From Thioalkalivibrio sp. ALMg11 (lineage in GTDB: Bacteria > Pseudomonadota > Gammaproteobacteria > Ectothiorhodospirales > Ectothiorhodospiraceae): 64,000 bases of DNA. The stretch is taken from NCBI RefSeq assembly GCF_000377905.1, contig NZ_KB898874.1:310001-374000 (forward strand), in the 5' to 3' direction. The translations under genes and the position numbers were made by a program. The notes under the pieces were generated by a model. That model was not told where the DNA came from. It did no database searches and was given only the letters and a program-made list of their open reading frames with translations. Below are positions 21,992 to 61,596 of the stretch, one piece after another. How positions within the stretch are numbered: position 1 is the first letter of the stretch; each line of letters starts with the position of its first letter.

Positions 21992-22292
21992 TAGGGAAAC
22001 GCTGATTAATGTACACGTTCGCGCTCGAGTCGATTTTGCGCGCGAACAAGGCGCGGCGACTGCCGTGCAGTCACTCTGCACAAGGGAGCCGCAACGCCGT
22101 GCGCACGCCCGTTTTCGTCAACAACGGTCGGCCGAGCCCGTTCATTCAATAGCTTGTCGGGTTGGTGCCCCAGGTTCCCCGATCCTGCGTTGCACCCCTT
22201 GCCGGTAGAACCACTACCGGCTGCGGGCCGCGCCTTGTCTCGGAAAACCTGGGGCACCAACGCGAACGTGTACATTAATCCGTGTTTCCCTA
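21992..22292. repeat. MITE-like structured repeat, copy 1 (inside cvpA-purF)
   Basis: Ends are terminal inverted repeats of about 30 bases: TAGGGAAACGCTGATTAATG on the left, and its near complement CATTAATCCGTGTTTCCCTA on the right, each preceded or followed by the TA dinucleotide. Inside is a 16-bp perfect stem, 22161-22176 with 22246-22261, enclosing a second 8-bp stem, 22201-22208 with 22214-22221, loop AACCA. No protein is encoded. The opposite-strand copy at 61222-61488 shares long identical blocks. It occupies nearly all of the cvpA-purF gap and would be transcribed as a folded RNA segment. Confidence 0.85.
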
Positions 22293-61098: not shown

Positions 61099-61224
61099 GC
61101 CCGTCGCTTTGAACTGGAAGGCTGGAACGCCAACGAGCTCGAGACTTCGCGGGACACGGAAATCGAGATCATACTGAGTATCGAGGGCTTCCCGATCCTG
61201 AAACTCAAGCGCGATCGAACCTAG
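61099..61224 (+). pseudogene. 3' fragment of a PepSY-like lipoprotein gene (paralogue of 61597-62067)
   Basis: The frame reads RRFELEGWNANELE and ends FPILKLKRDRT before TAG at 61222-61224. It resembles the end of the intact gene downstream (VIELEGITEDGDELNIRL ... LLSLERD) in length and pattern, but no start or upstream part is present. The stop codon is formed by the first bases of the repeat element. Probably a broken tandem copy. Confidence 0.5.
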
Positions 61225-61488
61225 GGAGACGCTGATGTAATCGCGCGCTCGCGTTGGTGCCCCCTGTTTCCCGAGATAAGGCGCGTCGTGCAGCGAGTAG
61301 TGGTTCTACTCGCAAGCGGCGCAACGCAGGATCGGGGAACAGGGGGCACCAACCCCGCAACGTATTGAATGAAGGGGATCGGCCGCCCGTTGTTGACGAA
61401 AACGGGCGCGCGCACGGCGTTGCGGCTCCCTTGTGCGAATGCAAAAGCGACTCGAGCGCGAACGTGCGATTACATCAGCGCCTCCCTG
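61222..61488. repeat. MITE-like structured repeat, copy 2
   Basis: Inverted copy of the element at 21992-22292. Ends TAGGGAGACGCTGATGTAAT and ATTACATCAGCGCCTCCCTG are near complements. The internal outer stem is 61253-61268 with 61338-61353 (16 bp, perfect) and the inner stem 61293-61300 with 61306-61313. A further end-like sequence, GGGAGACACTGATGAATGTG, follows at about 61490-61509. The remaining bases up to 61596 contain no gene. Confidence 0.82.
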
Positions 61489-61596
61489 GGGAGACACTGA
61501 TGAATGTGCATTTTCCCTGACGCGCGCTGGCTGCCTCGCATTCGTAGAACTAAACTCACCTGTATCGGCCCCAACGCACTATCAGGTCTCGAACTC

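Follow-up and report, generated by a model that had tools for sequence, protein, structure and literature searches.

MITEs are usually regarded as relics of which the ends alone are important. The Correia, RUP and ERIC elements are small bacterial MITEs with TA targets and a foldback structure. All three are named in the parts that we consulted of the literature on MITEs and repetitive hairpins (PMC2817692, PMC3733652, PMC10969869). In Pseudomonas fluorescens, the repeat R200 is 320 bp long, and R178 is 101 bp long with internal 11-bp inverted repeats (PMC2718517); REPs have been reported in Thioalkalivibrio too (PMC2817692, PMC3733652). The repeat described here, found in a 64,000-nucleotide stretch of DNA from Thioalkalivibrio sp. 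ALMg11 (the window), reverses the usual picture, in that the folded core is the part conserved between genera and between classes, and the ends vary.

Direct reading of the sequence bore out the first-pass annotation of the window, which had reported two copies of a structured repeat on opposite strands at 21992–22292 and 61222–61488. Copy 1 is flanked by cvpA (PF02674) and purF; copy 2 has a GlgB-like gene on one side and a gene with a PepSY domain on the other. All four compensated base pairs that had been listed between the copies are present, and the loop AACCA is kept in both. The outer stem is GTTGGTGCCCCAGGTT/AACCTGGGGCACCAAC in copy 1 versus GTTGGTGCCCCCTGTT/AACAGGGGGCACCAAC in copy 2, and the inner stem is GCCGGTAG/CTACCGGC versus GCGAGTAG/CTACTCGC. 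Inverted ends of about 30 bases flanked by TA had also been described; both copies have the inverted ends and copy 1 has both TAs, but the right-hand TA of copy 2 is TG. The features are collected in Table 1.

Table 1. Parts of the two element copies and adjoining features, in window coordinates.
Feature	Position	Strand	Evidence
Element copy 1, 297 bp	21994..22290	+	sequence reading; alignment; empty site in relatives G008 and G010
Left target TA (TTAG here; CTAG in empty relatives)	21992..21993		sequence, empty sites, flank counts
Right target TA (CTAG); CTA doubles as cvpA stop codon, minus strand	22291..22292		sequence, empty sites
Left terminal inverted repeat, class A	21994..22023	+	alignment, covariation, end classes
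Right terminal inverted repeat, class A	22261..22290	-	alignment, covariation, end classes
Left arm, long imperfect hairpin	22024..22136	+	fold, alignment
55-nt hairpin module, left copy	22045..22099	+	63.5 bits; homology of halves
Variable spacer closed by CCC(C)..(G)GGG	22137..22161	+	alignment, fold
Right arm with 16-bp and 8-bp stems	22161..22260	+	sequence, fold, covariation
55-nt hairpin module, right copy, inverted	22185..22239	-	69.7 bits
Element copy 2, 263 bp, class B ends	61224..61486	-	sequence, alignment
Copy 2 module (right-arm module)	61275..61329	+	63.7 bits
Isolated end of a further element, adjoining copy 2	61489..61506	+	end-pattern match

The two stems of the original description are real, but they are part of a larger fold. 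The predicted structure is a cloverleaf, in which the paired ends form a 30-bp basal stem. Three parts branch from this stem: the left arm, the spacer with its small CCC..GGG hairpin, and the right arm, to which the two stems reported earlier correspond. Predicted folding energies lie far beyond those of shuffled sequences (z of -11.4 and -10.9 as RNA, and -9.8 as DNA for copy 1). The spacer position is occupied either by a short CCCCTTCGGGG hairpin or by a variable sequence of about 20 nt such as ATTCAATnnnTTGT. When the right half of the element is reverse-complemented, it aligns with the left half, and the two share one 55-nt module, composed of ACAAGGCGC, a hairpin with a five-base loop, and CGCAACGC. 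In copy 2 the left arm is shorter by about 35 bases, a loss that takes in most of the left module's first half. The end pattern matched three times in the window (0.32 expected), and two of these matches are the ends of copy 1. Because an isolated end of a further element adjoins copy 2, this spot may have been hit repeatedly.

The window copies are only two among dozens in this genome. We searched 58 genomes, 30 of them from the genus, by BLAST with copy 1 and found matches in 16, all Thioalkalivibrio; at most 12 candidates were scored per genome, so copy counts from this search are lower bounds. A profile search over the collected loci yielded, after removal of duplicates, 134 distinct full copies of 267–318 bp (both TAs included), and the prediction that copies exist beyond the two in the window thus held. 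Of the 134, 25 come from this genome, which is a lower bound on its copies since only places located through the end pattern were taken in. The element's 17-mer is present in at least 110 named stretches; among the matches listed, 90 are from Thioalkalivibrio, and the other 20 stretches are absent from the profile-search copy list. Plasmid records contained no match to the window element.

Comparison with relatives revealed empty insertion sites. In G008 (flank 96% identical) and G010 (92%), the cvpA–purF gap contains an unbroken CTTCTAGGG, which is an empty CTAG site, at the spot that the element occupies in this genome, flanked by TTTTA and TAGGG. Two genomes of other species (G003 and G021, loci L201 and L202) have an independent insertion elsewhere in the gap, and G022 and G024 have none. 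The site of copy 2 shares only its downstream flank with G008. Among the 134 copies, the flanks are TA/TA in 75, CTAG/CTAG in 41 and TTAA/TTAA in 13. The insertion target is YTAR, CTAG and TTAA being the usual forms, and a minimum of TA flanks each side; a 4-bp duplication fits the TTAA/TTAA flanks and misfits the TTAG/CTAA flanks of six copies. At cvpA, the gene's minus-strand stop codon lies partly within the CTAG target, and duplication of the target therefore leaves the stop intact. In two species, oppositely oriented elements (L130 and L187) lie at seemingly identical flanking sequence. The element is thus short, non-coding, multicopy and dispersed, with terminal inverted repeats, a target-site duplication and empty sites. 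Judged by its presence and absence in related genomes, it is mobile, and these sequence features identify it as a non-autonomous transposable element (MITE) of Thioalkalivibrio.

The simplest model offered at the outset, a MITE moved by an external transposase, agrees with the empty sites, the many copies and the inverted ends at YTAR, and an autonomous transposon with the same ends, which had been named as a check, was found as an IS5-family element in relatives G029, G010 and G012. G029 carries three full-length, TA-flanked copies of a 1202-bp IS5-family IS with ends GGGAAACGCTGATCAATG and GGGAAACACTGATTTATT (the first base is changed at one of the three) that encodes a 321-aa IS5-family transposase (NF033581, 319 bits). 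G010 has one similar IS5-family IS. In a further IS, from G012, the gene contains a gap, and the two IS ends are similar to the two classes of end seen among the small elements. Direct reading shows IS and element sequences parting after about 18 bp. An IS-derived interior, the feature of type I MITEs, was absent when the ends were read, and since the likeness to the IS stops after about 18 bp, we assign the element to the type II MITEs. An IS5-family IS with matching ends is the likely mobiliser. PF01609 genes were present in three of the seven genomes tested; this genome, one of the seven, had no PF01609 match and has one isolated IS end. Neither of two transposase loci in G021, one of them at a contig end, bears any of the element's ends. 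An IS630 origin, suggested by the TA target, was considered and rejected. PF13358 (IS630-type) genes occur in seven of 30 genomes, four of the seven being among the 19 genus members searched. Element ends do not bound any of these four genus loci, although several loci stop at contig ends: L077, L078 and L079 have no such end, and at L073 both ends belong to an adjacent IS5-type element.

To quantify covariation, we drew up the helices manually, using folds of single copies, and counted changes over the 134 copies, because RNAalifold on all copies gave a poor right arm. Double-changed cells numbered 416 in the end stem (400 without the outermost pair) versus a shuffled mean of 108, 135 versus 54 in the right outer stem, and 55 versus 16 in the right apical stem; the left arm showed little covariation. 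The covariation first seen in two copies therefore extends to the further copies, strongly so in the end stem and right arm. All four Watson–Crick pairs occur at column pair 17–285. The pairing partner, up to 296 columns off, is the most informative variable column at 16–286 (0.64 versus 0.21 for the next-best column), 21–281, 27–275 (0.81 versus 0.39), 28–274 and 212–228, and also at 3–299, the outermost pair, which tracks the target (A–T at TTAA) and so is not to be counted as compensation. For a number of columns, 17, 24, 181 and 182 among them, the partner is equaled or beaten by a different column, which follows from the existence of two end classes. These classes are always matched within a copy: among the 127 copies that could be classified (seven of the 134 were unclear), 97 are A/A, 30 are B/B and none is A/B.

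When copies that occupy one site in several species are compared, the outcome differs from that for copies at different sites. In eight comparisons at seven sites, none of 40 changed pairs is compensated, a count into which a block of five adjacent changes at L027 enters twice; with one comparison per site the figure is 0 of 31. Two further same-site comparisons, in which four of 26 changed pairs are compensated, were set aside as likely separate insertions, a judgment based on their 39–40 differing sites. Among non-orthologous copies that have diverged to a similar degree (0–5 changes in unpaired columns), 47–51% of changed pairs are compensated, and 71–76% in the end stem. Pairs in resident copies are thus altered on a single side at a time, which assigns symmetric change to the mobile lineage, and the contrast between 0 of 40 and 47–51% argues that the covariation does not come from selection on the resident cvpA–purF message. 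A time-depth effect, with old master lineages and conserved loops, could mimic such transposition-linked compensation.

These counts bear on the proposal that the element encodes a functional RNA or a structure of the cvpA–purF mRNA, with host-level selection maintaining the fold. The predicted RNA fold is very stable, read-through is plausible at both window copies (cvpA–purF and glgB–PepSY), and loops are conserved across genera. Furthermore, paired columns of same-site copies are somewhat less changed than unpaired ones (40 of 186 versus 26 of 75, summed over the eight comparisons). On the modeled strand, mismatches over all helices comprise 540 G–T and 164 A–C, an excess that stems largely from fixed G–T pairs in the left arm and ends. 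Three such left-arm pairs, found in 126, 102 and 88 copies, fit an RNA role and count against the mobile-lineage reading. When the seven common-wobble pairs are left out, the bias becomes unclear (142 G–T versus 123 A–C; 47:35 in the left arm, 33:51 in the right arm and 54:35 in the ends), and it is the covarying right arm that is richer in A–C. Selection on RNA within the cvpA–purF mRNA, one of the options first suggested, is also unsupported in view of the uncompensated same-site changes and of the insertion itself, which is missing from G008 and G010, the closest relatives compared, whereas an independent one lies elsewhere in the gap in G003 and G021; nor does the element match an Rfam family. 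We therefore consider a host-selected RNA improbable. The broader suggestion, that the folded form is under selection, is not supported for the cvpA–purF message; during mobility, the folded form may be either selected or generated.

The same data speak to a purely mutational origin, in which the arms of resident copies would correct each other by template switching with no selection involved. Matched end classes in all 127 classifiable copies agree with such correction, as does the pair L107 and L090 of a single strain, two near-identical copies with almost exclusively symmetric differences. Correction at resident copies predicts, however, that same-site copies be symmetric, and all 40 of their changes are one-sided, making this origin unlikely. 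The symmetry between L107 and L090 is suggestive of end-to-end copying during transposition, and arm correction coupled to transposition is a possible part of the explanation that we prefer, a non-autonomous element whose fold is kept through mobility.

The homology of the two halves, and with it the phylum-wide occurrence of the 55-nt module, had been missed in the first-pass annotation. A first module model (R1, E up to 0.001) had hits in 60 of the 369 class genomes searched, representing 45 of 271 genera, with just two of the 60 from the genus of the window. A second (R2, E up to 0.0001) matched 79 of 398 genomes of the phylum, in 43 of 213 genera; 48 of the 79 lie outside the class, and 38 of those 48 belong to one family. 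In both models six outer pairs were set one base off, so these matches rest on sequence and on the apical stem. In the right register, covariation over 41 modules is 0.492, versus 0.175 for shuffled alignments and at most 0.13 when slid, a value favored by the fitting of the alignment to the model and arising mostly in the apical helix. The module loops are conserved across genera.

To learn what surrounds the module elsewhere, we examined 67 loci from other genera, some of them several per genome and six within 180 bp of a locus end. Good inverted repeats bound 58 of the 61 loci that have at least 180 bp on each side, whereas none of the 82 control positions within these loci is so bounded. 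Elements of 255–290 bp account for 47 of the 61, with the module 50–57 bp from the near end and 158–178 bp from the far end. The predicted folds are again cloverleaves, usually with a CCC-loop-GGG mini-hairpin between the arms. The two ends of an element share 95% identity across these 47, an identity built in by choosing the ends as inverted repeats. Between elements, the ends are 48% identical (shuffled, 42%) and fall into 23 clusters at a 75% threshold, and the modules are 68% identical (shuffled, 55%), a likeness partly built in by the model used to find the matches. The other 14 loci have single arms, other lengths, or no clear ends. Three loci (L238, L254 and L349) hold single-arm versions of about 97–99 bp with one module, for which no outer ends were found, and two longer relatives of 430–450 bp (L247 and L256) seem to have an extra arm between the ends.

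Convergence of GC-rich hairpins, rather than descent within a single family, might be invoked for the cross-genus matches, given the partial mis-specification of both models, the built-in share of module likeness and the 14 divergent loci. Neither length nor ends were used in finding the matches, however, and the elements agree in length and in module offset, have ends of a kind found at none of the control positions, in several cases hold another module, inverted and at constant spacing, and usually share the mini-hairpin. Convergence is thus very hard to credit.

Relatives of the element occur on plasmid records of Azotobacter, Halomonas, Pseudomonas and Pseudoalteromonas. The L244 element has plasmid matches in four records, with clear inverted ends in three of the four regions (L291, L292 and L294), and no match in the phage collection. 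L344 has plasmid matches in seven records; L351 also has matches in seven, three of them only outside the element. In G174, relatives with TATACCCAA ends (L344–L346) resemble Pseudoalteromonas plasmid sequences. On an Azotobacter chroococcum plasmid (L293), an element relative directly adjoins an annotated IS630-family transposase gene.

DDE_Tnp_1 genes were found in six of 11 other-genus genomes, representing five genera. None of 30 DDE_Tnp_1 loci in these six genomes has element ends on both sides, as searched with one end sequence per genome, and a few have single-sided end matches. A scan of four genomes with the GGGCCTGTT end pattern gave close pairs and single ends. Five unpaired end sites in G602 had no longer element within the 3 kb read. 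Since these other-genus searches found no autonomous partner, the partner is known in Thioalkalivibrio only. Other sequences in G602, at L336 and L343 and including one of 163 bp in L343, have the ends of that genome's element; from their ends, it is as if several small elements in G602 used one transposase, itself not found.

We consider it probable that the element is a non-autonomous DNA transposon, a type II MITE of a widespread structured family, whose ends are served in trans, whose fold is kept through mobility, and whose resident copies decay. Presence and absence at the target, matching IS5 ends within the genus, the potential to fold, covariation, one-sided change at fixed sites, and a conserved core with varied ends are the observations from which we start. 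An IS5-type transposase would act in trans on the element ends in Thioalkalivibrio. The fold may be kept since only well-paired copies, which place their ends side by side, would be good substrates for the next transposition, and/or since transposition would use one end as the template for the other. The conserved module may be a cis-acting site read by a host factor common to these bacteria. Adaptation of the family to a new transposase would then exchange the ends, and resident copies would decay thereafter.

The conserved core and varied ends suggest that the folded core, and not just the ends, is what is kept, from which we infer a function for the core. More tentatively, with the balance leaning somewhat against it, the elements may form a phylum-wide class of mobile elements, defined by a conserved folded core (two inverted 55-nt modules around a mini-hairpin, in a total of about 270 bp) and by symmetric exchange of ends between transposases, with a core that is selected and read by a Pseudomonadota-wide factor. 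If so, a non-coding element would keep its identity while switching its mobilizing enzyme, and two testable ideas would follow: that DNA folding helps the transposase to pair the ends, and that a host factor reads the core. The analysis also carries a caution, that strong covariation in repeats may stem from a mobile lineage rather than from a functional RNA at every site.

Among described families, Rfam 15 at gathering thresholds recognized two tRNAs only in the window. With E up to 1, its matches over the elements in 10 loci were just three weak ones to microRNA families (E 0.58–0.66), below gathering score, and matches to t44 and rsmX in the same loci fall outside the elements. Correia, RUP and ERIC elements, as generally described, are set apart by lengths and ends other than those of this element. 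Our literature search, which left subscription papers mostly outside its coverage, returned no recognized description of the family, and an earlier description is possible.

REP/REPIN identity was rejected on palindrome length and tag: the module has a foot of RACAAGGC..GCAACGC and a length of 55 nt. The element is like the REP doublets moved by RAYT tyrosine transposases in its two inverted hairpins and many copies; unlike REPs, described in the portions consulted as 20–40 bp with a GTAG or CGTC tag, it has the foot ACAAGGC and a 55-nt unit, and unlike REP doublets the whole element has terminal repeats and a DDE-type target (PMC2817692, PMC3733652). It resembles the MITE-like R0 and R2 repeats of P. 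fluorescens in being intergenic, with inverted ends matching resident insertion sequences; those repeats are 89 and 110 bp, and a two-module core is not described for them in the sections available (PMC2718517). The closest likeness in kind is to type II MITEs, with a length under 500 bp, no coding capacity, inverted ends of about 30 bp, a target duplication, likeness to an IS confined to the ends, and a stable fold (PMC10969869). The parts of that review that we covered describe no conserved core with exchangeable ends, and its type II MITEs are AT-rich. The element of Thioalkalivibrio, in contrast, is GC-rich, has two arms with homologous inverted modules, and shares its core across genera with elements whose ends differ.
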